In this document: positions 761 through 31,129 of the stretch, one piece after another
Numbering within the stretch: the stretch's first letter is position 1
How the letters are laid out: every line of letters starts with the position of its first letter
Virus record (IMG/VR): IMGVR_UViG_3300028610_002387
Location: 1 to 31,129 of that record
DNA from: a virus
Length of the DNA: 31,129 bases
Reading direction: 5' to 3' (one strand)
Notes under the pieces: model-generated
Told to the model about the DNA's origin: nothing
The model's database searches: none
Seen by the model: the letters and a program-made list of their open reading frames with translations, nothing else
Program-made: the position numbers and the translations under genes

Positions 761-1705
761 ATGGGACAGCTATGGGTAACAAATTCGCTCGGTGGCTTTC
801 TCGGTAATCGCAAGCTGTCAAGGACGGTCCGGCACGCGGCACAGCCGATGCAGAAGTTCAGACAGTTTTGTAATATCAAGGAAGCGCTGGGCAGTAACAA
901 AAATGATCTGATTTTCTACGATAAGATATCGAACGTGGCGACCCAGGGCGGCACCCTGGTCGAGACCAATACGATGCCCGAAACGCAGGTTACGATCCAG
1001 ACAGGGACCCTGAAGGTCACTGAATTTGGTAACAGCGTTCCCTTTACCGGCAAGCTGGAGATTTTAGCTGAGTTTGACGTCGATAACATCATTACCGTCG
1101 CACTGCGTAATGATGAGTCGAAGGTGCTCGATTCGACCGTTGGCGGGCAGTTCGTACTATCGCAGCTAAAGTATTCCTGCCTGACGGCATCCTCGGCGGG
1201 TTCGTTCCAGACCCTTACCGCCGATGCGGCGCAGGGGACGACCACCTGCGCGGTCACTTTCGATATGTACCACCTCAAAGAGTGCGTTGATAAGCTAAAG
1301 GTCCTCAACGTCCCGAAGTATGACGGTGAGAACTACATCTGTATTGCGTCTATCAATGCAACTCGCGGCATTAAAAATCATTCCGACTGGACGGACGCGG
1401 CCAAGTACGGCGACCCGGAAAGACTGTTCTCCGGCGAGGTCGGAAAGATTGAAGGTGTGAGGATTATCGAAGAAACCAACTTTTTGAGTAACGCACGTGG
1501 CGGGAGCACCTACGGCGAAGCCGTGATGTTCGGCGCGGACGCAGTTATGGAAGCTGTGGCCCTGCCGGAGGAGATTCGTGCCAAAATTCCCACTGACTAC
1601 GGCCGATCCAGAGGTGTTTGCTGGTACGGCCTCTGCAACTTCGGCAAGATATGGGATTACACCGGCGACGGCGAAACGCATATTATCCACATCAACAGTA
1701 ATTAA
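761..1705 (+). CDS. Major capsid protein, N4-gp56-like (HK97 fold)
   Basis: This 314-residue protein is the probable shell-forming capsid subunit. The pattern fits the N4-gp56 family of HK97-fold coat proteins: residues about 45-110 hold a strand-rich stretch (FYDKISNVATQGGTLVETN, then TVQ-type repeats), followed by the long helix region EILAEFDVDNIITVALRNDE. Residues about 220-245 hold the family-like GDPERLFSGEVGKIEGVRII block. An AGAAAGGAG ribosome binding site lies just upstream. The gene follows the scaffold by 32 bases and precedes a terminator-closed block, consistent with separate high expression. Assignment to N4-gp56 rather than another HK97-fold family is from pattern memory and is moderately certain; the capsid role is more certain. 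Confidence 0.85.
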   Translation: MGQLWVTNSLGGFLGNRKLSRTVRHAAQPMQKFRQFCNIKEALGSNKNDLIFYDKISNVATQGGTLVETNTMPETQVTIQTGTLKVTEFGNSVPFTGKLEILAEFDVDNIITVALRNDESKVLDSTVGGQFVLSQLKYSCLTASSAGSFQTLTADAAQGTTTCAVTFDMYHLKECVDKLKVLNVPKYDGENYICIASINATRGIKNHSDWTDAAKYGDPERLFSGEVGKIEGVRIIEETNFLSNARGGSTYGEAVMFGADAVMEAVALPEEIRAKIPTDYGRSRGVCWYGLCNFGKIWDYTGDGETHIIHINSN

Positions 1706-1722: not shown

Positions 1723-2493
1723 ATGAGACGTTCAAGATACATTATGATCGGATTAGTCATAGGCTTCCTTTGCGTTTTAGCGATGGGATCTTATGACAAG
1801 ACGTATATTACGCACAGCCCGGTTTATGAGGATACGTATGGTCCGTATTTCGGCAACGACCTTGATTTTCGGATTTATTCCGACTCTGACGGTGTAATTG
1901 AAGTTGACCCGGATGCCGCCGGAAATACCTGGTATTTCGGTACGGGATACACCGATGCGATCAACGTTCACTGGTACTGTGATACCGACGGCGATTACGT
2001 TCTGTTCGACGAGGAAAACTGCACGGTTGACTTTGAAGATGTATCAATCCACGTGATGGACGATACCACGGTTATCTTCGGCGATGACTCCAACGGGACA
2101 CTGCAATACGATGAGGACGGCGAAGACGCCATGCAGTGGAACAACGTGGCGATCTACGGTAATTTGCGGCTTGTCGAAAAGATAACGACAGCCACAGATT
2201 TACTTACCGTAGCAGAGTCGGGGAAGGTAATTATTTCCAGCTATACCGGAAGCCAGACCCTCACCCTGCCGGCTGCGGCGGCGGGACTGTACTTCACCAT
2301 TATCGACGGCAGCAGCGTGGCCGCCGATGATCTGGCTATCGTGCCCGGTACGGGCGATCAGATTGATTACGACACTGCTGGAGACGGTATCCAAAGCGTT
2401 ACCGACGCCTACCCACAATCAATAACGTTGCAGGCAATTGATGATATTTGCTGGCACACGGTTTATGTAGATGGAACGTGGGGACAACAGTAG
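1723..2493 (+). CDS. Secreted-looking beta-rich protein, possible capsid decoration or fibre
   Basis: This 256-residue protein begins with a clear signal or anchor sequence (RRSRYIMIGLVIGFLCVLAMG). The rest is acidic and beta-rich with many D, G, T and Y residues (SDGVIEVDPDAAGNTWYFG). Residues about 160-256 (from TDLLTVAESGKVIISSY to the C terminus) resemble the beta-sandwich or spike tails of phage proteins that carry the motif SG..I...TGSQTLTLPAAAAGL. It follows the capsid gene by 17 bases with its own GAAAGGA site and ends just before a strong terminator, so it is probably expressed with the capsid. The location suggests a decoration or minor head protein, but the signal sequence is odd for a cytoplasmically assembled head. 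Function not established. Confidence 0.6.
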   Translation: MRRSRYIMIGLVIGFLCVLAMGSYDKTYITHSPVYEDTYGPYFGNDLDFRIYSDSDGVIEVDPDAAGNTWYFGTGYTDAINVHWYCDTDGDYVLFDEENCTVDFEDVSIHVMDDTTVIFGDDSNGTLQYDEDGEDAMQWNNVAIYGNLRLVEKITTATDLLTVAESGKVIISSYTGSQTLTLPAAAAGLYFTIIDGSSVAADDLAIVPGTGDQIDYDTAGDGIQSVTDAYPQSITLQAIDDICWHTVYVDGTWGQQ

Positions 2494-2597: not shown

Positions 2598-4196
2598 ATG
2601 TGCCATCGTAATAACAGGTATGATAGGTTTCTGGTTTGTATGGGCGGTTGGGTTAAGGGAAATAATAAGCTGGTTCTGATGGCGGGAGTTGTTTTTTGTT
2701 TCCTGATTTCAAGCTCTAAGATTTCAAGCTATAAGGTGCTTGATATTACTCACATGACCCGATGGCTGGCCTGGACAGCCCTTTGCCTTGTGCTGGCCGT
2801 TTCCTTGGGAAAAGACCTGAAAATCCCCAAAAGCAGGGTAATGACGGCCTTCCTTCTATATCTGGTTATGTCCGCCGTATCACTAATGTTTGCATATAAC
2901 ACAACCGAGGGGATATACGAACTGGCGCATATCGTTTTAGTATTCATCTCAATAGCGGTCGTTTTTTCGATCATAAAAGATATCAAGGACGTTGCAAAGA
3001 CCTTTACCATATTTGCCCTGATAATAGGGGTGTACGGTGTGTATTACATATATTTTGTTTGGGATGGGCGAGGCCAGAATTTTGCGACGATGGGCCAGAA
3101 AAACACCTGGAGCCAGTTGAATCTGCTGCTGCTGCCGCTTTGCCTTTACATGGTATTCAGGGGGCAAAGACTATGGCGAATCGCGGGGATATTGTCGGGC
3201 CTGTTGACGGTCTTTCATGTTGTAATCCCGCAAACGAGGTCGGCGATACTGGGCATGGGTTTAGCTATCGCAGCGGCCCTTTTCGTCCAAAAACGGTGGA
3301 TGATACTGCTGGGCCTTTCTTTCTTGGCGGTGGCTGCTTTCTTTATATGCCACAAAGCCAATTATCTGACCTGCCCCCAGAGTCTCGTAAACCGCTTTTG
3401 TACCTGGAAGCAGACTTGCCTGCTGATAAGGGACAAGTTCATAGTGGGAGCGGGTAACTGGCAGCTGGAAATACCGCTCTACGCCGAAGGTTTTTACACC
3501 GAGGATGCGTTTAGAAATACATTCACTGTCAGGCCGCACAATGATTATCTCTGGGTCGCCGCCGAAGCGAGTCCGGTTGGAGCAATCTTCTATATATCAT
3601 TTTTGCTGTTTGCGCTATACTGCGCCCGGGGCAATCCCTATCTTGTGATGGGACTGGTGGGGTACATGACAATATCGTTTTTCTCGTTTCCCAAAGAAAG
3701 AGCGCCCCTGGTCGTTATGATGATATTTTATGTGGCACTGGCGCTATCCAGCTCCGAGCCGATAGGTAAATATTCCGGTTATATGATCGCGGCGATGGTA
3801 TTGGTTTTGGCCGTTGTTTCGGTAAGGACAAGGGCGGAACTTATCTCTAAACAGATTCACATAGCCAATAATGACAAGAACTGGAGCAGGATTCTTGATT
3901 TGACCGAAGGGTTTTGGCCGGCCTCACACATTGACACCTACAGCACCCCCATTATCTATTATCGCGGCATTGCCTTCGAGCAGTTAGACGATTACAAAAA
4001 CGCCCTGATCGCATACTCAAAGGCCGGCCGGGCAAATTACAATCATCTCTATACCCTGGGCGGCCTTGGTATATGCCATTATGAGCGGGGAGATTACTCT
4101 GCGGCCCAGGCGTGCTATGAAAAAGCGCTTGTCATAAAGCCCGACTACGAAGGGGCCATACAAAATCTAAGGCAAGTGAGAAGGAGAATAAAGTGA
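2598..4196 (+). CDS. O-antigen ligase/polymerase-like membrane protein with C-terminal TPRs
   Basis: This 532-residue integral membrane protein has about ten hydrophobic segments across residues 25-400 and a soluble C-terminal region. The Wzy_C/WaaL-type signature is visible. PQTRSAILGMGLAIA (about 211-225) matches the family TRS block. GAGNWQLEIP (284-293) precedes the large periplasmic loop. RPHNDYLWVAAEASPVGAIFY (about 312-332) is the conserved H-N-[DE] plus AE.G..G motif. Residues about 445-525 form two TPR-like repeats. Known relatives transfer or polymerise lipid-linked glycans at the periplasmic face; some (PglL/PglO-type) glycosylate proteins. Which of these applies here cannot be told from sequence. 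The stop overlaps the next GTG start. A GAGGT site precedes the chosen ATG; a start at M15 is also possible. Presence inside a virion gene block is unusual. Confidence 0.85.
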   Translation: MCHRNNRYDRFLVCMGGWVKGNNKLVLMAGVVFCFLISSSKISSYKVLDITHMTRWLAWTALCLVLAVSLGKDLKIPKSRVMTAFLLYLVMSAVSLMFAYNTTEGIYELAHIVLVFISIAVVFSIIKDIKDVAKTFTIFALIIGVYGVYYIYFVWDGRGQNFATMGQKNTWSQLNLLLLPLCLYMVFRGQRLWRIAGILSGLLTVFHVVIPQTRSAILGMGLAIAAALFVQKRWMILLGLSFLAVAAFFICHKANYLTCPQSLVNRFCTWKQTCLLIRDKFIVGAGNWQLEIPLYAEGFYTEDAFRNTFTVRPHNDYLWVAAEASPVGAIFYISFLLFALYCARGNPYLVMGLVGYMTISFFSFPKERAPLVVMMIFYVALALSSSEPIGKYSGYMIAAMVLVLAVVSVRTRAELISKQIHIANNDKNWSRILDLTEGFWPASHIDTYSTPIIYYRGIAFEQLDDYKNALIAYSKAGRANYNHLYTLGGLGICHYERGDYSAAQACYEKALVIKPDYEGAIQNLRQVRRRIK

Positions 4197-4417
4197 AGGT
4201 TAATATCAAATGGATTATCGTTTGTGTCGTAATCGTTGTGGTTATGTTGTGGGCCAGGAGTACGTATTTCACAATGGAAGCCAGAGACAGCAGGGCACTT
4301 GAAAAAAAGAACCAGGTCCTGCGGCTTTTAGCAGAACAGCAGGAACTTAAATATAAGATTTTAGTGCTTGAGGGCAGGCTGATGAAGGCACGGCCCGTAG
4401 AGGACCCGAACGAATGA
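4193..4417 (+). CDS. Small single-pass membrane protein with coiled coil
   Basis: This 74-residue protein starts at a GTG whose bases overlap the upstream stop (GTGA). Residues 6-22 (KWIIVCVVIVVVMLWAR) form one membrane span. Residues about 30-65 form a heptad-like coiled coil (ALEKKNQVLRLLAEQQELKY). The layout resembles FtsL/DivIC- or spanin-like small proteins, but no family is claimed. Overlap with both neighbours (ATGA with the next gene) suggests it works with the glycan cassette, perhaps as a partner of the membrane ligase. Confidence 0.65.
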   Translation: MKVNIKWIIVCVVIVVVMLWARSTYFTMEARDSRALEKKNQVLRLLAEQQELKYKILVLEGRLMKARPVEDPNE

Positions 4418-5166
4418 TAGGATTTGTGATACCGGCTTATAACGCCCCGGACGATCTGGACAGATGTGAGCAGTGTATAGTCAGGCAGGATGTCCCCCAT
4501 GAGATATTCGTACACGACAACAGTATAGACAACATCTTTTTCACGGCGGCGGTCAATAAGGGGATAAAAAAAGCAATTATGGTTGACCACGGCTTAACAC
4601 AGAATGAGTACGTTTGTGTTATCAATCAGGATGTATTTCTTGAGGATGGAGCCATAAAAAAAATGATCGAGTTAATGCGGTCGAACCCCGATATCGGGAT
4701 TGTATGCGCATGTATGCTGCCGAGCGATGATACGAATATCTGCATTGATACCGGCGGGCTGTGGGCTCTGCCGAGCGGAGGGTCGCTTCAACTGCCGAGA
4801 CATTTACTTATGGCCACGCCTTTGTTATGGGCGACGGCCGCCTGCTGGCTGCTGCGGCCGGAGATGATTGAAGAAATCGGCCTGCTGGATGAGAACCTTG
4901 TCCACTTCTGCAGCGATGTGGATTACTGCTATACCGCGCGCAGTCGCGGCTGGGAGGTGTGGAGGAGTACGGCAATCGGGATACACAGGCCAAAGAGCCT
5001 GCAACTAAGCGAAGAGCTATATATGCAGAAGAGTAAGGACACGGAATACTTCGTGAAGAAGTGGTGCGGAGGGCTTTTTCACGATTTGAATTTCACCTGG
5101 CAGAAAGAACCCCAGTACCAGGAAATAGCTGTATACAAGAAAGGCAAAAGGATAGATGTGAAATGA
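4414..5166 (+). CDS. Family 2 glycosyltransferase
   Basis: This 250-residue cytoplasmic enzyme probably transfers a sugar from a nucleotide-sugar donor. It shows the GT2/GT-A layout. The nucleotide-binding start is GFVIPAYNAPDDLDRC (3-18). The HDNSIDN segment follows at 34-40. INQDVFLEDGAI (about 69-80) lies where the metal-binding DxD-type motif is expected, although the second Asp is not canonical. LLDENLVHFCSDVDYCYTA (about 155-174) is the family (E/D)D-type catalytic region, followed by RGWEVWRS. These late motifs are typical of rhamnosyl- or Wbb-type GT2 enzymes. The start overlaps the upstream stop by ATGA and the stop overlaps the next start the same way, so translation is coupled. Sugar specificity cannot be read. 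Confidence 0.85.
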   Translation: MIGFVIPAYNAPDDLDRCEQCIVRQDVPHEIFVHDNSIDNIFFTAAVNKGIKKAIMVDHGLTQNEYVCVINQDVFLEDGAIKKMIELMRSNPDIGIVCACMLPSDDTNICIDTGGLWALPSGGSLQLPRHLLMATPLLWATAACWLLRPEMIEEIGLLDENLVHFCSDVDYCYTARSRGWEVWRSTAIGIHRPKSLQLSEELYMQKSKDTEYFVKKWCGGLFHDLNFTWQKEPQYQEIAVYKKGKRIDVK

Positions 5167-5396
5167 TTGAGCCAATTGATTTAGATTGTGACCCGATAGC
5201 AGCAACTCAAGACTTATGGGAGAAACAAGGTGAGATAATAAATCTCCTCAATATGATGCGTTCTCCAGTTTCAGCGATAGCGATTCCCTGCCCTAATGAT
5301 GATTGTTGTGGTGTGCTCTCAGTAGAAAAATACATTGACCGTCCTACCTGTAACGAATGTGGCAAGGTATATAAAATTATAGAGGTTGTGGATTAA
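5163..5396 (+). CDS. Small zinc-ribbon protein
   Basis: The 77-residue protein is started here at the ATG that overlaps the upstream stop (ATGA), rather than at a longer upstream in-frame start that would run 100 bases into the glycosyltransferase. C-P-N-D-D-C-C (about 40-46) and CNECG (about 66-70) form a two-knuckle CxxxxC/CxxC zinc ribbon. The N-terminal half is acidic helix. It sits between two glycosyltransferase genes and may be a structural or regulatory accessory. Function unknown. Confidence 0.6.
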   Translation: MIEPIDLDCDPIAATQDLWEKQGEIINLLNMMRSPVSAIAIPCPNDDCCGVLSVEKYIDRPTCNECGKVYKIIEVVD

Positions 5397-5397
5397 A

Positions 5398-7089
5398 ATG
5401 TGGGACCCTAAACTACCGGAAGGCAACGAAATGGCCAAATGCCGCAATCGCGTGGCAAGCTACCTGCGCGGGGCAGGCCTGGACCTGGGTTGCGCCAAGG
5501 CCAAAGTCTGCGAAGGGGCGATAGGGATCGATAACGCCCATAAAGAAGCGGATGTTCAGATAGACTTATCAGGCGTCGACGCCTTACGAATCTTCTCAGA
5601 CGGCGCTTTCGATTATGTATTTTCGAGCCATTGCCTGGAGGACTTTCACGCCACAGATGCTGTTCTTTCCGAGTGGTGGAGAGTCATAAGGCCGGGCGGG
5701 CATATAATCCTTTACGGGCCGGACCCGGACTTCTATCCGAAGATAGGAACGGTGGGGGCCAACCCCTCCCATAAGACAGACCTCTACTGGCATGATGTAT
5801 GGGCATTACTCGAAGCCTACGGAAACGCCGAACTCATACAACATTCCCGCCATAACGAATCAAACGAATATAGCTGGCAGCTCGTTGCAAGGAAGAAATA
5901 CGCGAGATTGAAAACAGTCAAGGCGGCCTTCGGCAAGGTCTACGATGGGATGATGGCCTTCCCACGAAGGAAAACCATAGTAGAGCGAAAGTATTTTGGG
6001 GGAAATTCTTTGCCAACTCTCACCAGGCACCGAAAAGAGGCCCTTGTCATTCGCTACGGGGCGCTGGGTGATATGATAATGATTACACCGGTCCTACGGC
6101 AGTTAAAGAAAGACGGCTACCACGTTGTCCTTAACTGCTCGGAATACGGATCGCAGGTCCTTAAAGAAAACCCAAACATCGACGAGTATATCATCCAGCA
6201 GAAAGACGTTATACCCAATAACCAGCTCGATGAATACTGGGCCGAGATCGGTAAGGGTTTCGACAAGGTAGTCAACCTTACAGCGACAATCGAAGATGAT
6301 CTCTTAAAGGTGCAGGGCAAGGAGGAGTTTAACTGGTCCCACAGCAAAAGAAAAAAAGAGTGCAACAAAAACTATATCGATTATTCGATGCTCAGGGCGG
6401 GCTATGACTTAAAGGGCGAAGATACGGAGCTGTACTTTTCCGAGTCGGAAGAGCAGTTGGCGAGGATATTCCTTGACCATTACAAAGACAAGTTTCTCAT
6501 AGTATGGGCGATGAGCGGGTCATCCATGCACAAAGTCTATCCCTTCTCTGAGTATATAGCGGGCTCGATCTGCCAGAAATACGGCGATGAAACTATTATC
6601 GTAACGGTCGGGGACGACACAGCGCGACAAATCGAATGGAACCTGCCGAATACTCTGCCCCGGTGCGGGTTATTTACTATTCGCCAGTCGATGATACTTA
6701 CCAAATATGCCAACCTCGTCATCGGGCCGGAAACGGGAATACTGAATGCCGCGGGCTGTTACGAGACGCGCAAGATTATATTCATGTCACATTCGAGCGA
6801 AGAAAATCTTACGAAATACTGGAAGAACACTACGGCACTGCATCCCGAGAACTGCCGGTGCCACCCATGCCATAAACTGATTTATGTAGATACCTGCCCG
6901 AAAGGCAAATTAGCCGGGCGGCCGAAGTGCGCCGAGAACATAAGGCCGGAAACCGTATTCAAAACGTTTGAACATTATTTTAAGGGATGGAAAAATGACC
7001 GAGACACCAGTAATTCTCAAGGGGGCGGACGAGCTCCACATCAAAGAAGACACCAAAAAAGGCACAAAAGGCGGCGTGTTCTATATTAA
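5398..7089 (+). CDS. Fusion of a SAM methyltransferase and a family 9 glycosyltransferase
   Basis: This 563-residue protein has two domains. Residues about 25-130 are a class I SAM methyltransferase: LDLGCAKAKV (28-37) is the glycine loop, FDYVFSSHCLEDF (71-83) the acidic motif IV region, and WWRVIRPGGHIILYGPDPD (93-111) the post-I region of Methyltransf_11 enzymes. Residues about 214-530 are GT9/heptosyltransferase-like: ALVIRYGALGDMIMITPVLR (215-234) is the GxGD-type N-terminal motif, and YANLVIGPETGILNAAG (437-453) is the donor-site motif. Known GT9 enzymes add heptose to LPS core. The residue 485-510 region is Cys-rich (CRCHPC, then two further Cys). The start chosen is the ATG two bases after the upstream stop; an in-frame TTG 12 bases earlier is possible. 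The C terminus (HQRRHQKRHKRRR) lies in DNA shared with the next gene and may be non-conserved. Confidence 0.85.
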   Translation: MWDPKLPEGNEMAKCRNRVASYLRGAGLDLGCAKAKVCEGAIGIDNAHKEADVQIDLSGVDALRIFSDGAFDYVFSSHCLEDFHATDAVLSEWWRVIRPGGHIILYGPDPDFYPKIGTVGANPSHKTDLYWHDVWALLEAYGNAELIQHSRHNESNEYSWQLVARKKYARLKTVKAAFGKVYDGMMAFPRRKTIVERKYFGGNSLPTLTRHRKEALVIRYGALGDMIMITPVLRQLKKDGYHVVLNCSEYGSQVLKENPNIDEYIIQQKDVIPNNQLDEYWAEIGKGFDKVVNLTATIEDDLLKVQGKEEFNWSHSKRKKECNKNYIDYSMLRAGYDLKGEDTELYFSESEEQLARIFLDHYKDKFLIVWAMSGSSMHKVYPFSEYIAGSICQKYGDETIIVTVGDDTARQIEWNLPNTLPRCGLFTIRQSMILTKYANLVIGPETGILNAAGCYETRKIIFMSHSSEENLTKYWKNTTALHPENCRCHPCHKLIYVDTCPKGKLAGRPKCAENIRPETVFKTFEHYFKGWKNDRDTSNSQGGGRAPHQRRHQKRHKRRRVLY

Positions 7090-7324
7090 GGAGGGGAAAG
7101 CCTACTACGCGGACGGCCGGCAGATGGAGCTGGGCAGGGCGTTTGTCTGCCAGTATTGTCAGCAGTCCCCGCCGTTCTGCGCGGAAAGAGAGATCGACTT
7201 CGCAAAGCACATAATCGATAAGCACCCGGAGCACGCAAAGCCGGAACCCCAAGACCGAAGACCCAAGACAGAGGACCAAGCACCAATCGTCAAGAAAAAG
7301 AAAAAGAAAAAGAAAAAGGGATAA
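6995..7324 (+). CDS. Small protein with CxxC...C...H...H finger and polylysine tail
   Basis: This 109-residue protein starts at the ATG preceded by TAAGGGA; a TTG nine codons upstream has no such site. FVCQYCQQSPPFC, followed by H and DKHPEH (about 50-80), looks like a zinc finger. The C terminus is nine consecutive lysines encoded by repeated GAAAAA units (about 7291-7319). The first 95 bases overlap the end of the upstream fusion gene in another frame. The basic tail suggests binding to nucleic acid or another polyanion. Function unknown. Confidence 0.6.
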   Translation: MTETPVILKGADELHIKEDTKKGTKGGVFYIKEGKAYYADGRQMELGRAFVCQYCQQSPPFCAEREIDFAKHIIDKHPEHAKPEPQDRRPKTEDQAPIVKKKKKKKKKG

Positions 7325-7327
7325 CCG

Positions 7328-8107
7328 ATGTCCACTTTAGCAAGCGAGATTTTAACGCGGGTCCAGTCAAACTGGCCTACCAGCTATTTCAGTGACGAGC
7401 TAACCGCCCCGATAAGGCTGAGACACCTAAACGAGGTGCAGAGAAGAGTATGCCGGGCGCATAACTTCGCCTTTATGAAGCAGGAAGTGACGCGCTCGAC
7501 CGTAGATGAGACCCAGAAATACTCCGTCCCGACAGCAGAGGCATCGGGCACTACCTGGACGGAAGTTATCGCCGGTTCGACCATTCTGCGGTTCAAGCGG
7601 GACATTTCTCTGGAACTTATCAACTCGCAGAGCTACCGGGTGCCGTTGATAAAACTGCATAAGCAGCTCCTCGAAGATAAAAAGGTCCTGGCTAAAGAGA
7701 CGGGCAAAGGAATACCACGGTTCTACGATATAGACCAACAAAGGATATGGCTCTACAAAATCCCCGAACATACTTACAACGCAGGATCGGCCTGGACGAT
7801 GAACTTCGAGTTTTTCGGCTATTTAGCGGATTTGGCAACGGGTGACAGTAATGAGCTGACCGATAACCATAACCTGATCCTCGAATACGGGGCGACTGCG
7901 CGGGGGTTCGCCTTCGGTAAAGACTGGAGGGAAGCCGACAGGTGGACGCAGATGGCACAGGACATTTTTCTTCAAATGGTGGATGAGGATACCGACCTGC
8001 AGTTATCAGGGCAGGAAGAGGGGATGTTCCCCGACCCGGCCAACAGCGTAGGCGGCGGCGATCCCTACAAAGGCTTCCTGCAGGGGACAGATTGGTACAC
8101 AAGCTGA
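7328..8107 (+). CDS. Head-tail adaptor-like protein (probable)
   Basis: This 259-residue soluble protein begins with a helix-rich segment typical of podovirus connector/adaptor proteins, including ELTAPIRLRHLNEVQRRVC and HNFAFMKQEV (about 24-52). It is followed by a beta-rich middle (KYSVPTAEASGTTWTEV) and a helical end (ITARGFAF-type, about 180-215). The position, between capsid genes and tail fibre/nozzle genes, also fits an adaptor bound below the portal. Divergence within this class is high, so this is a family-level guess. Its stop overlaps the next ATG (TGATG). Confidence 0.6.
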   Translation: MSTLASEILTRVQSNWPTSYFSDELTAPIRLRHLNEVQRRVCRAHNFAFMKQEVTRSTVDETQKYSVPTAEASGTTWTEVIAGSTILRFKRDISLELINSQSYRVPLIKLHKQLLEDKKVLAKETGKGIPRFYDIDQQRIWLYKIPEHTYNAGSAWTMNFEFFGYLADLATGDSNELTDNHNLILEYGATARGFAFGKDWREADRWTQMAQDIFLQMVDEDTDLQLSGQEEGMFPDPANSVGGGDPYKGFLQGTDWYTS

Positions 8108-8343
8108 TGAGAAAAAAACCATATACCGAAATTGGAATAAAACGCGTGCCTTGTTTCCGTTGCGGAAAACCATCTGCTCGGCAATGGCAGATATGTTCGT
8201 TGAATAATGAATACAAGGGATTGTGTCCAGAATGTGACATTAGACTTAATCAGATTGTTTTGAAGTTTATGGGATTACGACCCAACAAGATACGGCGTTT
8301 GATTGCGGATTATGTACATAACTACAGAAAGGGTAGAAAATGA
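8107..8343 (+). CDS. Conserved small phage zinc-finger protein
   Basis: This 78-residue protein is started at the ATG that overlaps the upstream stop (TGATG). It has two Cys pairs: VPCFRCGKPSARQWQIC (14-30) and LCPECD (44-49). The start MRKKPYTEIGIKRVPC and the LCPECD...LN..VL..MG block recall small proteins of unknown role found in many tailed phages. The C terminus is basic helix. A role in nucleic-acid binding is plausible but not shown. The stop overlaps the next gene by ATGA. Confidence 0.65.
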   Translation: MRKKPYTEIGIKRVPCFRCGKPSARQWQICSLNNEYKGLCPECDIRLNQIVLKFMGLRPNKIRRLIADYVHNYRKGRK

Positions 8344-9326
8344 AAAAGCACTGTATTTTAGCCTTTGTTTTGGGGGTCATGTTCATACTTCTATTCGGCT
8401 TTACGAGGGACTGGATAGAATCGACCCCGACGGACGCGACGGTAGCCAACCAGATAGATGACTTCAACAGGGGCCTGCGCGTTGATGTCTCCGACCGTAT
8501 AAAGAGTATGCTTTACGGCTTTACGGCGGGAGAGACGGAAATCGGCTTTAAGTATATGCAGATTTACGAGCAGGCAAGCGTTTCTCAGCCTTCGGCGGCT
8601 TACGGCAGGTTGTACGGCAAGGCGGTGGGCGGCAAGTGCGAATTGCACTGGCAGGATGAAGATGCAGACGAGATCGAATTGACCGAAGGCGGCAAACTCG
8701 TAATAGGTTACGGGACGGCGTCACAGGCTATAATGTGGAATACGACCGAAGAAGATGGGGCCGGCGGCAGAGAATCCCAAATACGGGCCACAGGAGAACA
8801 GTCAGGTGGCGAGAGAACTACATTGGGATATGATGAGTTCTCTCACGAAGGTTCTTCTGACGACCAGAAAGGGCAACGCAGGATTTTTCTCAACGATGGA
8901 GATGATGGAGACACCCCTACATTAGTTATGACAATTCCTTCTACGGGGGTTGCACCTACGATGGTAGAGTCTACAGCACCAACTACGGATGCTCAACTTG
9001 CCAATAAGAAATACGTTGATGACAGCTTTAGTCCGACATCGATGAGCGGGAGCGAGGATGATTCAGGCCAAGTAGAATTTCGCAACGGGCTTCAAATGAA
9101 ATGGGGGCTTGCGACAAGCGTGGGAGCCAACTCTACTAAAGCGGTAGATTTTACGGATGAAAGCTTGACTGATTTTTCCAATGCCTGCCTTCAGGCTTTC
9201 GTAACGGATAATACTTTTAATCAAAGCGAAGGCCCATCCGTATCAGCTAAATCAACAACGGGCCTGACAGTAGCTAACGGTGGCGCATCTACCAGTGATA
9301 TTGGCTGGTTTGCAATAGGATGGTAA
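8340..9326 (+). CDS. Tail fibre protein with N-terminal membrane segment
   Basis: This 328-residue protein has an N-terminal hydrophobic segment (residues 5-22, CILAFVLGVMFILLFGF). The middle is strand-rich with a collar-like ALASQAIMWNTTEED-type region, and SAPTTDAQLANKKYVDDS (about 213-230) is the motif commonly seen before the receptor-binding part of phage fibres. The last about 80 residues match the Gp53-like fibre tip pattern: GLQMKWGLATSV, then FSNACLQAFVTDN, ending in DIGWFAIGW. The tip would bind the host surface. The membrane-type N terminus is unusual for a tail fibre and may be a signal sequence or a virion membrane anchor. The start is ATGA-coupled to the upstream gene. Confidence 0.8.
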   Translation: MKKHCILAFVLGVMFILLFGFTRDWIESTPTDATVANQIDDFNRGLRVDVSDRIKSMLYGFTAGETEIGFKYMQIYEQASVSQPSAAYGRLYGKAVGGKCELHWQDEDADEIELTEGGKLVIGYGTASQAIMWNTTEEDGAGGRESQIRATGEQSGGERTTLGYDEFSHEGSSDDQKGQRRIFLNDGDDGDTPTLVMTIPSTGVAPTMVESTAPTTDAQLANKKYVDDSFSPTSMSGSEDDSGQVEFRNGLQMKWGLATSVGANSTKAVDFTDESLTDFSNACLQAFVTDNTFNQSEGPSVSAKSTTGLTVANGGASTSDIGWFAIGW

Positions 9327-11392
9327 TGAAAAAACTCCTTTTCATAGTTTTGTTCTTGTCTACCCTTGCTTTTAGTCAGGACAGCCAGATTCATCCCTAT
9401 CTGGCGCCTCGCGGCGGGCTGAGGATGGACCTGCCGGGCAATCTCATATCCGATACCCAGATTACAGACTGCCAGAACATTTTTTTCGAGCAGGGGTATC
9501 TCAAGAAGCGGTACGGATATAGCCGGCTGGGGACCAATCTGCCACTTGCAGGCCAGGTCATAGGGTCCGATCAATTCTATCTTTTCTCAGGCAGCGATTA
9601 TCTCCTTGCGCTGACCACCACAGGGGTCTGGAAGTACATACCGGCAAGCACCTACTGGGAAACGATAATGACCACCGAACAGGAGGATGATTGCGAGACT
9701 ACATGGACGGCGAAAGCGAATGTAACCGCCGCCGATGATACTTCCGACTATAAGGAGGGCTCGACCGCACAGAAAATCTCGCCGGCGGCCGGCTTTACCA
9801 CCGGAATACTCGCCTACCGCGACCAGGCACTCGGCGATAAGAGCGCCTACGGCCTGGTCCGTATCTGGGTCAAATCCTCAATAGCCCTTACCGCAGGCCA
9901 GTTGGAAGTGGTCATATCCAATAGTGCGGCCTGCGCCAGCGAAGAAGAGAACATCGACCTGCCCGCCATGGCCGCGGACACCTGGTATCTGTGGTTTGTT
10001 TCAATAGCCACGCCGGCGGGTATAAATTCGGTCGATTCGATAGGACTGAAGGCGACAGCGGACTTCGGGGCCTGTGATATAAGAATTGACGATATTCATT
10101 TCGTAGCGCCCTTCAATGCCAATATCGCCTACGACGCAGACAGCGCCGACTTGTGCTCTTTCGATTATATCCGACATACCACCCAGTCCGAACCCTGGTG
10201 GGTAATGACCAACGGGACCGATGAGGTGTGGAAATGGACGGGATCGGGCGCCCTTTCGGCGCTTATAGACGTCTGGCCTACGGGTGTAACGTCTCTGACG
10301 TGCAGAAAACTAATTGAGTTCAAAAATCACCTGTTGTTTCTGGATGTATCCGAGGACGGCAATAGATACCCGCAGCGGGTCAGATGGTCCGACACGGCCG
10401 ATCCGAACGATTTTCTGAACGGTAACGCTAATTATCAGGACCTCTCCGGCGCCGACTGGATACAAACGGCCATAAAGTTCAAAGGCGATTACCTCGCAAT
10501 ATTCAAGGAACGCTCTATCTGGTTAGGCTACGCAACGGGCGACTCGGGCATCTTCCAGTTCGACCAGAAAGTTACCGGGGCAGGCTGCGCAGCGCCGGCA
10601 ACGGTGGAATCTTTAGGTGATGAGCTGATATTCTTAGGCTGGGACGATATTTATGTCTTTAACGGGATCGATTATGAGTCCATCGGCTCTCAAATACAGA
10701 GAGAATTTTTCGACGACCTTGCCCCGGGTGATATGGACAAATGCTTCGGCGTTATTATCGAAGAGCAGAAGGAATACTGGCTTTTCGCACCTTCCTTGAA
10801 CTCGGACTACTGCGATATCGCCTGGGTATTCAATTACGAGCTGAACTCCTGGACCAAACACGATTTCGCCGCAGTTGACGGTTCGACCAACGGGATATCT
10901 CAATACGGATACTACGAAAAGCAGTCAAACGTTACTATAGGAGATCTGTCGGGCACGATTGGCCAGCAGACCTGGCGGATAGGCGACAGGGAAATATTGG
11001 CCGCGGCGCCGACGACTTTATTCGGCGATACGGACGGTTATATTTACGAATACGACCAGCTCGTTTCCAACGATGACGGCACGACGATAGATGCTTGGTT
11101 TTCCACTAAAGATTTCATGTTCACCCAGCTAATGGAACGCCAGATGATTCTGAGGATGGACGTCTATTTCGCCGGAGGTGGGGACTTAAAAATAGCCTAT
11201 TCGACAGACTTCGGAAGCACCTGGAACAGTGAGCGGACCCTGACGGGTAATTATAACTATGATATTGACAGGGTGTACTGGCGGATCGATTGCCCGTTGA
11301 TCAGGTTTCGGTTCAGGAACAATAACGCGGGAGAACATTTTGATTTCAGAGAAGCGAGGATTTACTGGCAGCCGACGGGCAGGAGATTTTAA
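9326..11392 (+). CDS. Tail nozzle/tubular-B-like protein with signal sequence
   Basis: This 688-residue protein probably forms the tail nozzle, as T7 gp12 or P22 gp10 do. Supporting patterns are the repeated beta-propeller-like blades (ALTTTGVWKYIPAS, about 93-106), the typical RVRWSDTADPNDFLNG (about 350-365), FKERSIWLGYATGD, LGDELIFLGWDDIYVFNG and the late AWVFNYELNSWTKHDF. The N terminus KKLLFIVLFLSTLAFSQ is a textbook signal peptide with a likely cut after A-F-S, which is unexpected in a tail protein. The start chosen is the ATG overlapping the upstream stop (TAATG); an ATG six bases earlier also fits. The stop is followed by an AGGAG site for the next gene. Confidence 0.75.
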   Translation: MKKLLFIVLFLSTLAFSQDSQIHPYLAPRGGLRMDLPGNLISDTQITDCQNIFFEQGYLKKRYGYSRLGTNLPLAGQVIGSDQFYLFSGSDYLLALTTTGVWKYIPASTYWETIMTTEQEDDCETTWTAKANVTAADDTSDYKEGSTAQKISPAAGFTTGILAYRDQALGDKSAYGLVRIWVKSSIALTAGQLEVVISNSAACASEEENIDLPAMAADTWYLWFVSIATPAGINSVDSIGLKATADFGACDIRIDDIHFVAPFNANIAYDADSADLCSFDYIRHTTQSEPWWVMTNGTDEVWKWTGSGALSALIDVWPTGVTSLTCRKLIEFKNHLLFLDVSEDGNRYPQRVRWSDTADPNDFLNGNANYQDLSGADWIQTAIKFKGDYLAIFKERSIWLGYATGDSGIFQFDQKVTGAGCAAPATVESLGDELIFLGWDDIYVFNGIDYESIGSQIQREFFDDLAPGDMDKCFGVIIEEQKEYWLFAPSLNSDYCDIAWVFNYELNSWTKHDFAAVDGSTNGISQYGYYEKQSNVTIGDLSGTIGQQTWRIGDREILAAAPTTLFGDTDGYIYEYDQLVSNDDGTTIDAWFSTKDFMFTQLMERQMILRMDVYFAGGGDLKIAYSTDFGSTWNSERTLTGNYNYDIDRVYWRIDCPLIRFRFRNNNAGEHFDFREARIYWQPTGRRF

Positions 11393-11552: not shown

Positions 11553-11971
11553 TCATCATTATAATTTTATTCACGGTAATAGCATACGCAACGAACCTCC
11601 AGCGGACGCAACTGTTCCCTTCCACGGCCCGATTAGAGCCGTCGGACAAGATAGAGGACCCGTACATCAAAGAGCAGTTCAATAAGGTAAAGCAATGGGC
11701 GGAAAAGCTGCAGGAGATGCTCGACAGCACATTCAGGAAAATCGCAGAGATACCTTACAACCAGTCCGCATCTCTGACCGTTGCCGACAGCGGCAACGCG
11801 AACACAGAATTTAGCGCTTCCCACTACCTCGGAAGGACGCCGGCGGGATTCATTGTAACCAAAAGCGATAAGGCGTGCAGTGTGTACGATTCGGGAACTG
11901 CGTGGACTACAACTACGATATACCTTAAATGCGATGCGGCAAATACAGCGCTTACGATAACAGTATTTTAG
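11531..11971 (+). CDS. Signal-sequence coiled-coil protein with phage fibre-type C-terminal domain
   Basis: This 146-residue protein begins with a signal or anchor (QKYTEIIIIIILFTVIAYA, 2-20). Residues about 45-70 form a coiled coil (KEQFNKVKQWAEKLQEML). The last 60 residues (SHYLGRTPAGFIVTKSDKAC, then a beta tail ending TALTITVF) match a small beta domain that often ends podovirus tail or spike proteins, with the H.LGR.P.G..V and T..YLKC pattern. The start is the ATG at codon 11 of a longer open frame and has a weak site. The last 20 bases overlap the 3' end of the antisense HNH gene. Confidence 0.65.
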   Translation: MQKYTEIIIIIILFTVIAYATNLQRTQLFPSTARLEPSDKIEDPYIKEQFNKVKQWAEKLQEMLDSTFRKIAEIPYNQSASLTVADSGNANTEFSASHYLGRTPAGFIVTKSDKACSVYDSGTAWTTTTIYLKCDAANTALTITVF

Positions 11972-12386
11972 GACGACCATGACCACAGGTTTTCATATGA
12001 ACAGCATGATTATGAAACAATTGAAGATTTTCAATACGATTGTCTGCTTTATCTCCATTTATGTGATGGACTCTTTCAGAAGGCTTCAAAAAACGACCCA
12101 AATGTTTCTCCATTACGAGACGATGTTCACGAACACAACGGGTGGTTGTACCACAAAAAGGGTGGTCCGGGCAATAAACCAATATATAGCCTCTACTGAA
12201 CCTTTTACCACCTTTCCAATTAGCAGCTTTTTCACCTTTTCTATTAAGAGCGACTCTGCGAAGGGCTTCTCGATGTTTTTCTGTCCGGGGCGGTTTAGGT
12301 TTGCAAAGGGCTTTTCTATGTTCTTCTGTTCGAGGATATTTGCCCGTTTTCATATCTGGGGTTCTTTTGTAAACACCTGCTGGCAT
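11952..12386 (-). CDS. HNH homing endonuclease, antisense to the virion operon
   Basis: This 144-residue protein is encoded opposite to all its neighbours. EHRLVMEKHLGRFL, SERVHHINGDKADNRIENLQ (about 87-122) is a complete HNH_3 core with His 107-108, Asn 110 and the N..N.. spacing. N-terminal repeats RTEEHRKAL and RTEKHREAL (about 19-43) resemble NUMOD3 DNA-binding modules, as in phage free-standing homing endonucleases. On its own strand AAAGGA lies about ten bases before the ATG. These genes spread by cutting cognate sites in homing-endonuclease-free genomes. Its placement in a gap between virion genes is typical of an inserted selfish gene. Confidence 0.85.
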   Translation of the reverse strand: MPAGVYKRTPDMKTGKYPRTEEHRKALCKPKPPRTEKHREALRRVALNRKGEKAANWKGGKRFSRGYILVYCPDHPFCGTTTRCVREHRLVMEKHLGRFLKPSERVHHINGDKADNRIENLQLFHNHAVHMKTCGHGRPKILLS

Positions 12387-16900: not shown

Positions 16901-17782
16901 GGCGGTAAGGCCCAGAGTATGTATAATGATGAGGACAAGCCCGCCTTCCTGCGTTCCCTGGCCGTGAAAACAGCAGCTCCATATCAGACTTTCAATTACG
17001 AGGTTGTCAACGCTTTTAAGGAATGGGCCGGCAGGACAGGAACTCCACCGGACACTCAAGTAGAGCGAATGATTTTTATGGGTCGTTTTTTGGCGGCGTC
17101 CACCGTCTTCGCTTTACTCGCCAAGAATTTGGCCAATAAGGATATATGGAGCTGGAAAAGACCACCAATACCGTTTGCCGAATACTGGCTTACCCCGATT
17201 ATGCGGATATTCAACAACGAATATATCGGGGCCAGCGGTTCAGGTTTAACCTCACCGGTGGAAACCGCCCAGAGGTTAGCTAAAGGAATAGACGATTTTC
17301 TTGAGACCGGCGCAACCCGCAAGCTAAGAAACGAGGTACTCAAATATGGCCCCGGTATTTTAGGGATCCCCGGGGGCGTTCAAATCTCACGAACAGTCGA
17401 TGCGATAATCGCATATAGTCAAGGCGGAGTAAAAGACCGTCGAGGCCGCATGATGTTCAAGATGGAAGATCCACAGGATTTGGCCCAGGCTATTTTTAGC
17501 GGTGTGTGGTCAACGAAAGGTGGTAGAGGTTATCTTGACCCCGAATACAGTTGGAAACGAATGAGTCATGCGGAATTGCAAGCAGAAATAAGTAAACGTA
17601 CTTATAAGAGTCGCTATAAAAGAAAAGATGGAAATTGGTACCCCGCAGGCCATCCGCACAGCGGTAAGGAAGAAGTAGTCGCTTGGATGCGTGAAATCCT
17701 CAAGGGAAAGGAGAAAAAGAATAACGGGACAGAGCCTAAACGCAAGCAAAGATTGGAGCGGGAAAAGAGGATGCTCAGGTGA
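13898..17782 (+). CDS. Giant polyvalent-type internal virion protein
   Basis: This protein has 1294 residues from the coupled ATG (ATGA with the upstream gene; an ATG 12 bases earlier is in frame). The N terminus carries a tandem motif, WKPEGATL and WKPKGATL. Residues about 165-300 contain Gly/Ala-rich hydrophobic stretches (TAGAIVGPVVGTIPARLALQ) that may insert into membranes. Residues about 380-700 are highly charged. The C-terminal half (about 860-1290) shows the large-polyvalent-protein pattern (LTGQALINYASDEGGKAQSM, then FNYEVVNAFKEWAGRTG, FMGRFLAASTVFALLAKNLA). Such ends occur in phage proteins injected with DNA. No lysozyme, transglycosylase or protease active site was recognised. It may be an ejected protein or channel component, but this is not proven. 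Confidence 0.65.
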   Translation: MSWKPEGATLVEEEWKPKGATLTTPAQSATQKADKQTAGKTTPIMDSIKSVDEDEERKFIFDNIDSFTLEELRDAGLSIGEQEEIAQKRADAMPGRRTAGQPQPVGPVRTGIRAWEPSLLDKIKMRLQRPTPAGGVDRSDRPFTTLGQLGLHHTAETLSGLGLHLPDVISGELAGGKTLAEAVDKWTGFEPSPRDIRAGKAGQFVGGLHTAGAIVGPVVGTIPARLALQRILASGLTFGTRRAAEELADKVRKDEPFSWEGIHFESGIGALFGAGEVGLGKAINFVKGLKKLPKPKITNARAEVNAALKNYKKTGDRTAWDAVRTKYAGITTEGAARIKARAKAPDIKEFGKYPITTVKAQPTRGVQGPETTLAAKTGVKGGVVPKGAIKRIPEVPQKKSIEKLQAEIDSYMKENKDPPTELLAEFNAATRKQKKPPIDAAKFAKEERLDKIKTKAEMGDIATEGGYQSQSTAFNKHIDYFEGRQLPKTSQIPRIQKNMRVVNGKRLAGTITAQEANIKIQQLRKMLFETAKREGVALRKTIPRPGSRKEGKTRLSVRKAGTYVPEEFAQYGKFKDVYPLGKDVTRSIQEIDGSLSRSEKVKTKGQAGALEQNVLWPTRDMSIQKLKYIKEKGAEIKGILSGIKRDSAEDRRINLVLEAIGSDYRDISIKELLGRKDLRAIAGAKTIKQAVELRRFYDDLIEEQNIAREMRNQQPIPYTRKYSPHILRDTTIWEQLMFRRLPTEKVHEHIFGKKAPLPDYIRPNKQFNPRAEARWGNMPYEERVKSAMGLAERYLVTASKDIFNTSIIQNNKAFIQQLESMEKKDAANYLSDWTAEAYAGIAPALDRGIKLTQLPKAQKAMRWFNQVRNMAVFPLNLAWNLTTQPSSMAFTIARQGGVNTLKGFKQWISDPKIRGEMSEDYYSYIVKASQQGRITKQDAQNLIGENVRVYRTPKEFIQDVGGFITHQIEKMLTGTSIRAAYLTGKKKGLTGQALINYASDEGGKAQSMYNDEDKPAFLRSLAVKTAAPYQTFNYEVVNAFKEWAGRTGTPPDTQVERMIFMGRFLAASTVFALLAKNLANKDIWSWKRPPIPFAEYWLTPIMRIFNNEYIGASGSGLTSPVETAQRLAKGIDDFLETGATRKLRNEVLKYGPGILGIPGGVQISRTVDAIIAYSQGGVKDRRGRMMFKMEDPQDLAQAIFSGVWSTKGGRGYLDPEYSWKRMSHAELQAEISKRTYKSRYKRKDGNWYPAGHPHSGKEEVVAWMREILKGKEKKNNGTEPKRKQRLEREKRMLR

Positions 17783-18987
17783 GGTTCAGGCTCATATCGA
17801 GGCATTGCGACGGGATAGGGCTCTTGTACCGGCTGTGGAAGGAGGGGCACGATGTGTCGTTCTGGGTGCAGGAAAAGAAAGCTAAGCCGACTTATAAGGG
17901 GATACTGCCGCAAGTTAAATCTTATTCCTCAGACTTGAAGAAAAGCGATATTGTCTTTTTCGATATGGTGGGGTTAGGAGCGATTGCCGACCAGTTAAAG
18001 AAGTCGGGCACAGCGGTTTACGGAGGCGGGCGGATCAACGACAAACTGGAACTTGACAGACTTTACGGAATCCAAACCGCCGAGGCGGCGAAAATAAAAG
18101 TGCCGGAATATAAGGTATTCAGCTCCGGCAGAATAGCAATCGATTTTATAAAGAAGAACATAGAATCCTGGGTATTTAAGCCACTCAATAACAAGAGCCC
18201 CATGCTCACCTACGTCGCCGATGATCCGGAAGATATGATTGAAATGATCAAGTACCTGAAACCCAAAGATAAGTTCATCCTTCAAAGGAAAATAAAGGGA
18301 ACGGAAATCAGTACCGAGGCGTGGTATGCCAACGGGAAACTCGTACCCAACAGTATCAGCTCGACCATAGAGACCAAGAAGTTCATGGACGGCGATAAAG
18401 GCCCGAACACAGGATGTATGAGCTCGGTGGTATGGTTCGGCTCTAAAATATACCGTCAGACCCTGGAAAAGCTCGAAAAGTTTTTGAAACGAAAGAGATA
18501 TTCCGGACCACTGGATATCAACTGTATTATGACCGAAAAGGGCCCGTACTTTCTGGAATTTACCGCCCGGTTCGGATATAACGCTGTTTACGCGGCGCTG
18601 CCGGAGTTTGGGCAGTTCGGCACGTTCCTTTCAACCCTGGCCCAGGGCATGATTCCTAAAATAAAACCATCCGGAAAATACTACGCAGCGGTCCGGGTTT
18701 CGATACCGCCTTACCCCAACGATGTCAAGGCCAAGTCCGGCCTGCCGATAAGAGGGATAGATTCGCTCGAAGACGTATTTTTACTCGATGCCATGCACAA
18801 CGGCAAGCTGGTCACTGCCGGGGTCGATGGCGTTGTCTGTGAAGTTACAGCCAGGGCAGAGAGTCTTGACGATCTAGAGAAAGAGATATATTCGAGGGTC
18901 GATAAACTCAAGATCCCGAATAAGCAGTACAGAAGCGATGCTATCGGTATAGCAAAAAAACGGCTTGATAAACTCAAAGAGAGGTAA
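17779..18987 (+). CDS. PurD-like ATP-grasp ligase
   Basis: This 402-residue enzyme starts at a GTG overlapping the upstream stop (GTGA). It shows the ATP-grasp layout of phosphoribosylamine-glycine ligase (GARS). Residues 129-137 carry an ATP-contact Lys (SWVFKPLNN). RKIKGTEISTEAWYANGKLV (170-189) and KFMDGDKGPNTGCMSSVVW (201-219) are GARS-like. YSGPLDINCI (241-250) and YFLEFTARFGYNAVYAAL (257-274) supply the metal-binding Glu/Asn. Known PurD joins glycine to phosphoribosylamine in purine synthesis. Here the usual N-terminal domain is short and no other purine gene is near, so it may have another acceptor, perhaps a virion or cell component. This functional switch is inference. Confidence 0.8.
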   Translation: MRFRLISRHCDGIGLLYRLWKEGHDVSFWVQEKKAKPTYKGILPQVKSYSSDLKKSDIVFFDMVGLGAIADQLKKSGTAVYGGGRINDKLELDRLYGIQTAEAAKIKVPEYKVFSSGRIAIDFIKKNIESWVFKPLNNKSPMLTYVADDPEDMIEMIKYLKPKDKFILQRKIKGTEISTEAWYANGKLVPNSISSTIETKKFMDGDKGPNTGCMSSVVWFGSKIYRQTLEKLEKFLKRKRYSGPLDINCIMTEKGPYFLEFTARFGYNAVYAALPEFGQFGTFLSTLAQGMIPKIKPSGKYYAAVRVSIPPYPNDVKAKSGLPIRGIDSLEDVFLLDAMHNGKLVTAGVDGVVCEVTARAESLDDLEKEIYSRVDKLKIPNKQYRSDAIGIAKKRLDKLKER

Positions 18988-30240: not shown

Positions 30241-30441
30241 ATGAGTAATGTAAAACAAGGAGAGCAGTTTTTTGCGATAGTTCGCAAAGGTGTGTATTCT
30301 AAGACATTGGCTGGCGAGGAAGGTGCCGGCAAGAGGATTGGGCCATTTGTGGCGTCAGGTGATAGTACGTCAGTGGGTGTCAGGGCAGGATCCAGATTTT
30401 TCCGTTCGGATCATTTTAGTATCGAGAGAAAAGGAGAATGA
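30241..30441 (+). CDS. Small hypothetical protein
   Basis: This 66-residue protein is ten bases after the ASCH gene, with GAGGAAAAC before the ATG. It is strand-rich and basic (EQFFAIVRKGVYSKTLAGEE; FRSDHFSIERKGE). The stop overlaps the next ATG (TGATG). Not recognised. Confidence 0.5.
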   Translation: MSNVKQGEQFFAIVRKGVYSKTLAGEEGAGKRIGPFVASGDSTSVGVRAGSRFFRSDHFSIERKGE

Positions 30442-31129
30442 TGGCTAAAAAGGCTTGCGAAGCAAATCAAAGTAAACCGGGAGCGGTGAAGCCGCGAACC
30501 GGAACTAAAGAATGGTCTAAAGACACTGTCAATATCCAGATGGGTTGTGAGCACGGCTGCCGATACTGTTACGCCAGGCAGATGATGGTTGACTGGCTGA
30601 AAAAATGCCCCGCCGAGCAGTGGGCCCATCCAGTGATCAATAATTCGGCGGTGGACGCCGAGTACAAAAGAATAGACGGCGTTGTAATGTTCCCATCGAC
30701 CCACGACATTACGCAGCGGAACCTCGCGCAGTGTCTGTGTGTGCTCCGTAAATTGCTGGACGCCGGCAACCAGGTCCTGATCGTTTCCAAGCCCCACTGG
30801 GAATGTATAACTTTAATCTGCGAGACATTGAAGGAATACAAGTCGCAGATAATGTTCAGATTCACCATTGGTTCAAGGAGCGACGAGCTCTTAAGTTTTT
30901 GGGAGCCGTACGCGCCACGATTCCATGAGAGACTGGCCTGTTTGGAATATGCCTGGAAGTGCGGATACCAAACCTCGGTCAGTTGTGAGCCGTACCTGGA
31001 CATGAACGTAAAGGACCTGTTCGCAACAGTTGCCCCGTATATCACTGACTCTTTCTGGATCGGAAAACTGCGGGACCTTAACAGAAGGGTTGATCTGACC
31101 ACCCTCACACCCGATCAGATCGACAGGTA
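30441..31129 (+). CDS. Radical SAM protein, cut off by the window end
   Basis: The frame stays open to the last base, giving 229 residues and no stop. GCEHGCRYCYARQM (35-48) has the CxxxCxxC cluster (Cys36, Cys40, Cys43) that holds a 4Fe-4S centre for radical SAM chemistry. The block VVMFPSTHDITQRNLAQCLC and VLIVSKPHWECI (about 79-121), then FRFTIGSRSDELL and TSVSCEPYLDM, resembles a phage radical SAM group related to spore-photoproduct-lyase-like folds. The start chosen overlaps the upstream stop; an ATG three bases earlier is in frame. The reaction is not known. Confidence 0.8.
   Translation, partial: MAKKACEANQSKPGAVKPRTGTKEWSKDTVNIQMGCEHGCRYCYARQMMVDWLKKCPAEQWAHPVINNSAVDAEYKRIDGVVMFPSTHDITQRNLAQCLCVLRKLLDAGNQVLIVSKPHWECITLICETLKEYKSQIMFRFTIGSRSDELLSFWEPYAPRFHERLACLEYAWKCGYQTSVSCEPYLDMNVKDLFATVAPYITDSFWIGKLRDLNRRVDLTTLTPDQIDR

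Follow-up and report, generated by a model that had tools for sequence, protein, structure and literature searches.

In a large podovirus-like lineage, most of it uncultured, a gene fusing a methyltransferase to a family 9 glycosyltransferase (MT-GT9) belongs to the vertically inherited core and stands between the head adaptor gene and that for the major capsid protein (MCP); such a fusion is encoded by the IMG/VR virus record IMGVR_UViG_3300028610_002387. The whole 31,129-nucleotide stretch of this record that was analysed (positions 1 to 31,129) is referred to here as the window. In the same block, the window carries a gene for a Wzy_C membrane protein with tetratricopeptide repeats (TPRs; hereafter Wzy), and this gene is carried at the same position by phages of at least three MCP types. 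We read the block as two phage glycosylation functions stacked in one late head operon, with MT-GT9 acting on a head protein and Wzy on an exported product, and assign this reading a probability of roughly 0.45.

Relatives were collected by searching IMG/VR with the window MCP and, separately, with MT-GT9, and the resulting loci were scored with hidden Markov models built for this analysis. The GT9 part was found downstream of MCP in 45 of the 51 MCP-seeded loci having at least 4 kb of downstream sequence. The six loci lacking it are L016, L033 and four loci of cultured phages (E. coli PTXU04, two Vibrio phages and one Bacteroides phage), taken from annotated records. In the reverse direction, MCP lies upstream in 72 of 79 MT-GT9-seeded viral loci (two of the 79 being contigs already in the MCP-seeded set), and the other loci mostly start near a contig end. 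The gap between MT-GT9 and the adaptor is shorter than 60 bp in 54 of 69 loci.

Pairwise protein distances for MT-GT9 follow those for MCP (r 0.81, n = 89 genomes); the corresponding correlations with MCP are 0.74 for the portal, 0.73 for the adaptor and 0.85 for the head-closure (Hc) protein, and none of 499 permutations attained the observed values. An MCP tree made by a quick method, for which the careful search is unfinished and several deep forks are open, groups PTXU04 with the Vibrio phages in a single supported clade nested among MT-GT9 carriers; the absence of MT-GT9 from this clade reads as loss. No homologue over most of the query was present among 50,697 phage records, where one 25% partial match covered the MT region, and our literature searches turned up no phage paper describing the MT-GT9 of this lineage.

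MT-GT9 prophages span several bacterial phyla. A single scan of GTDB contigs gave 14 loci with a match reaching the GT9 part, 11 of them full length, and the remaining matches cover essentially the MT part. MCP is upstream of MT-GT9 in 13 of the 14, the exception (L098) beginning at a contig end. Full-length fusions come from Paraburkholderia, Polaromonas, Accumulibacter, Geobacteraceae, Aromatoleum, Nevskia, Sulfuricaulis, Acidobacteriaceae, Armatimonadetes and one unclassified proteobacterium, and partial ones from metagenome-assembled genomes (MAGs) of Desulfobacterales/Deltaproteobacteria; since many of the host contigs are MAGs, these host names carry a binning risk. Isolates with an MT-GT9 prophage are Paraburkholderia rhynchosiae WSM 3937, Paraburkholderia sp. 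C35 and Aromatoleum anaerobium LuFRes1.

The MT half of the window protein matches Pfam Methyltransf_11 (7e-9). For the GT9 half, PF01075 scores 12.2 bits against a cut-off of 22, and 13 of 27 homologues match this profile (best 2.5e-10). An AlphaFold2 model (mean pLDDT 81.5) has the GT-B heptosyltransferase fold in residues 215–537, with Z 19.6 over about 280 residues to both 1psw (WaaF) and 3tov (Veillonella GT9), 17.4 to WaaC and 16.1 to TibC, while residues 6–170 match an S-adenosylmethionine (SAM) methyltransferase (3dli, Z 17.7). The R-Y-G-A/G-x-G-D, HK, GPETG and four-cysteine (Cys4) motifs and the MT motif are invariant or near-invariant among homologues; G228-D229, with the presumed catalytic Asp, and the four Cys are invariant. 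As catalytic motifs are invariant in both domains, MT-GT9 is probably an enzyme. It shares the fold, the N-terminal GD and the HK with cellular GT9 heptosyltransferases (WaaC/WaaF and 3tov), but differs from them in its methyltransferase fusion, its Cys4, its phage head locus and its GPETG, where most cellular copies have GxDTG. A GT9 fold with four Cys in the C-lobe is also common to the TibC/BAHT autotransporter heptosyltransferases, and in TibC the iron finger comprises Cys-339, 342, 358 and 370 (PMC4358343); however, the match to TibC is weaker than that to WaaF, and of 30 cellular GT9 loci scanned with a regular expression, 5 showed a comparable Cys arrangement. Domain arrangement varies: L009–L011 have a GT9 without the N-terminal MT, and in L041, L050, L063, L045 and L048 the two halves are separate open reading frames (ORFs) with other ORFs between them.

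In the window, MT-GT9 belongs to a run of five same-strand genes (2598–7089), mostly joined by 4-nt stop/start overlaps, between MCP and an SU10-type adaptor. The features of this region are as follows.

761–1705, plus strand: MCP (phrog_1357, 4.6e-19), upstream anchor of the module, with 80 IMG/VR relatives.
1723–2493, plus strand: 256-aa protein with a signal-peptide-like N-terminus, the hydrophobic N-terminal segment also occurring in L004 and L006; candidate acceptor for Wzy.
2598–4196, plus strand: Wzy, a polytopic membrane protein with Wzy_C (Pfam, 8e-7, just below cut-off) and TPR_1 (3e-11), probably of the O-antigen ligase/polymerase/O-oligosaccharyltransferase superfamily; accessory.
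4193–4417, plus strand: 74-aa protein with one transmembrane (TM) segment and a coiled-coil-like tail, read from the sequence; a similar small TM protein precedes GT2 in L002, L004 and L006.
4414–5166, plus strand: GT2 glycosyltransferase (Pfam Glycos_transf_2, 2.2e-8, above cut-off).
5163–5396, plus strand: 77-aa zinc-ribbon-like protein, from a Cys pattern seen by eye.
5398–7089, plus strand: MT-GT9 fusion, SAM methyltransferase (about 6–175) and GT9 (about 215–537) with the Cys4 motif; core gene.
6968–7324, plus strand: small Cys/His protein overlapping the 3′ end of MT-GT9, 44–56% in L002 and L004–L006; the real start is possibly later.
7328–8107, plus strand: head completion adaptor (SU10_adaptor, 6.2e-13), downstream anchor.
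9320–11392: Hc3 (head-closure) protein.

The original prediction had described an overlapping operon, placed between capsid and adaptor genes, that encodes a Wzy/WaaL-like membrane protein with TPRs, a small membrane coiled-coil protein, a GT2, a zinc ribbon and a methyltransferase-GT9 fusion. Pfam and fold matches, the overlaps, and the phrog_1357 and SU10_adaptor assignments of the flanks bear this out, with the ribbon, which had no Pfam match, being read by eye. A GTG at 4193 overlaps the Wzy stop by 4 nt and the ATG of the zinc-ribbon gene at 5163 overlaps the GT2 stop, suggesting translational coupling, and, judged from its homologues, MT-GT9 begins at ATG 5398 rather than TTG 5386. A tyrosine integrase encoded at 22716 is consistent with a temperate phage.

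The MCP–adaptor interval collects sugar genes across the lineage. We compared clusters rather than genes, with one representative per cluster and with MCP, MT-GT9 and adaptor excluded. The 72 interval clusters include Glycos_transf_2 (4), Methyltransf_23 (5), Methyltransf_24 (4) and GT1/4 families, together with RMNT_CmcI, TylF, FkbM, GFO_IDH_MocA, hexapeptide and cytidylyltransferase families; a control set of 72, drawn at random from the available clusters outside the interval in these loci, held no GT or Methyltransf family. The window GT2 is 73–74% identical in L002–L006, and its own search matched no viral contig beyond these; it is fixed in the closest relatives of the window phage. L006 carries, between GT2 and MT-GT9, a NosD-like protein (beta-helix; 6913–7887) whose start resembles a signal peptide.

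Wzy, by comparison, is an accessory gene: of the set, it alone is peculiar to the window phage among its close clade. The profile PF04932 (Wzy_C) scores 29.4 bits on it against a cut-off of 31.7 (E 8e-7). In six phage Wzy homologues, R266 and H314 are invariant and R214 is R or K. Two Arg and one His are essential in WaaL, and an R..R..H pattern is common to WaaL and PglL (PMC3643930); by motif order only, R214, R266 and H314 are plausible counterparts of the WaaL residues R215, R288 and H338. The TPR tail and the phage late operon set the window protein apart from WaaL, PglL and Wzy. Neither PglL_A nor PglL_B from Pfam matched it at E 0.05, and PilO likewise lacks these signatures (PMC3643930). 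An AlphaFold2 model of Wzy (mean pLDDT 58.8) gave essentially TPR matches in a structure search and was not used.

Full-length host relatives of Wzy (31–35%) occur in Desulfobacterales-class genomes, on stretches of contig in which inspection by eye showed no head genes of phages; one of them (L293) lies within a glycosyltransferase cluster. Matches were weaker in 16 searched genomes of other groups, and given this narrow genome sampling we make no host assignment from Wzy. The gene had no match in cultured phages, is absent from L002–L006, and a single-protein search of IMG/VR found nothing. Alignment queries of IMG/VR recovered five further viral contigs at 27–31%, and an alignment of phage sequences only gave the same five. 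A comparison of related phages, which the original prediction had proposed, divides the supposed inserted cassette, and reading the whole set as foreign is wrong: MT-GT9 is core to the lineage (45 of 51 loci) and GT2 is found throughout L002–L006, whereas Wzy, present in none of those, is accessory.

The Wzy contigs carry MCPs of phrog_334 (L295, L296), phrog_1357 (L298) and phrog_212 (L299); for L297 the fetched stretch excludes MCP, and the gene upstream of Wzy is cut by the contig end. By a hydropathy rule, the gene directly upstream of Wzy is signal-peptide-like in all five assessable cases (the window, L295, L296, L298 and L299), and the window protein at 1723 shows 39–43% local identity to this neighbour in L295, L296 and L299. 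On its other side, Wzy comes before an adaptor-like or tail-tube gene: the downstream gene is confirmed as a tail protein (phrog_394) in L299, and in L296, where Wzy is broken by a frameshift or stop, a short protein is followed by fibre and Hc-like genes. Among other genes of the six Wzy phages, 22 of 104 are signal-peptide-like by the same rule, against 10 of 945 in other loci of the lineage (L008–L081), although the rule also picks up TM starts and the counted genes are not independent. Two similar DADT-motif proteins, GT-A-like by eye, lie in head blocks of Wzy phages (L296:2632–3297 and L298:10652–11395).

We propose that MT-GT9 is a cytosolic nucleotide-sugar transferase, probably using an ADP-heptose-type donor as judged from its family, which would glycosylate and methylate a phage head protein, either MCP or a small protein encoded next to it; the order of sugar transfer and methylation is likewise presumed. 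GT2s and O-methyltransferases recruited to the interval may diversify the glycan. Wzy would be a periplasm-facing ligase using a lipid-linked glycan, most simply transferring it to the adjacent exported phage protein, with the host surface as an alternative target. Modification of exported phage proteins was one of two options offered by the original prediction, and our reading agrees with it there. The choice of a neighbouring substrate is drawn by analogy with pglL/pilO genes, which often adjoin the gene of their pilin substrate (21 of 31 pglL genes adjoin pilin genes; PMC3643930). Virion glycosylation is known from mycobacteriophages Che8 and Rita, in which phage glycosyltransferases decorate capsid proteins (cited in PMC11256854); in mycobacteriophage Maravista, which like these has other hosts, the GT genes lie near the 3′ genome end (PMC11256854) and not in the head block as in the window. 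A stronger version, which we think rather unlikely, is that an exported late protein and its own Wzy_C-TPR oligosaccharyltransferase form a protein O-glycosylation pair after MCP in unrelated capsid lineages, in addition to an obligate head-glycosylating MT-GT9 in a distinct, widespread lineage.

Several observations weigh against two stacked functions of this kind. Donor, acceptor and the modification itself are predicted from genes rather than seen on virions, and an exported protein would still need a way into virions. The cultured phages keep MCP without MT-GT9, making the enzyme dispensable for the head itself. Cys4 was considered as evidence that the acceptor is a protein, as it is for TibC, and was rejected, since the similar motif in cellular GT9s makes it uninformative on that point. 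The gene downstream of Wzy in L295, L297 and L298 is adaptor-like by position only, and that of L298 had no PHROG match. Signal-peptide-like proteins also occur in the Wzy-less close relatives L004–L006 and may thus be a host or clade trait rather than linked to Wzy. Finally, MT-GT9 hosts belong mainly to lipopolysaccharide (LPS)-bearing groups, so an LPS acceptor also fits.

The main rival is remodelling of host LPS or O-antigen, either late in infection, so that released virions avoid debris, or in the lysogen, as superinfection exclusion. MT-GT9 would then place a methylated heptose on the LPS core, and Wzy would alter polymerisation or ligation. We regard this as possible, if somewhat doubtful. 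GT9 is the LPS heptosyltransferase family and WaaF and WaaC are among the top fold matches, Wzy has host relatives including that in the L293 cluster, and Acinetobacter prophage wzy genes (Wzy1Ph/Wzy2Ph) convert surface polysaccharide or capsule (PMC13228068). Those genes, however, lie near a depolymerase towards one prophage end (PMC13228068), whereas MT-GT9 and the window Wzy are in the head block, and MT-GT9 co-diverges with MCP over hosts of several phyla instead of being exchanged.

A role for MT-GT9 in morphogenesis, or in modifying some cytosolic target other than a head protein or LPS, such as DNA, a nucleotide or a tail protein, is improbable. Its tight linkage to the adaptor would suit such a role and DNA-glycosylating phage GTs are known (Pyle et al. 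2024, as cited in PMC12619734), but the invariant catalytic motifs of both domains argue for an enzyme, and the window showed no recognisable partner gene for base hypermodification, although no systematic search for one was made. A chimeric assembly or a genomic island of the host, either of which the original prediction named as its possible undoing, is largely refuted as the origin of the block and very improbable: despite the host homologues of Wzy at 31–35%, full-length MT-GT9 occurs on contigs of viruses or, on bacterial contigs, next to head genes of phages, both flanks and neighbours are conserved at 73–88% in relatives, the genes overlap in a manner that suggests translational coupling, the G+C content of the Wzy gene (0.478) matches that of the window (0.488), and five other phage contigs have the same Wzy slot.

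If MT-GT9 modifies virions, head glycosylation would be an ancestral trait of a lineage found across several bacterial phyla, overlooked owing to the loss of the gene in those cultured members that we found. The prophages of the three isolates make virion glycosylation testable, and the recurrent pairing of an exported protein with Wzy is a concrete enzyme–substrate prediction.

Elsewhere in the window, the fibre-like protein (8340–9326) and Hc3 (9320–11392) have signal-peptide-like N-termini, which is odd for virion proteins; their L004 orthologues (54–63% identical) lack such N-termini, and the L006 fibre has one. An HNH-type ORF, recognised by eye, lies on the opposite strand within the structural region (11952–12386, minus strand), with a 52% match in L039. 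The tail-side region encodes a GARS/purD-like ATP-grasp protein (17779–18987; NCBIfam purD 1.2e-22, below cut-off) with a 28% match in L016, and an open-ended ORF at 30438–31129 has a CEHGCRYCYA motif and is possibly radical-SAM-like, as judged by eye.

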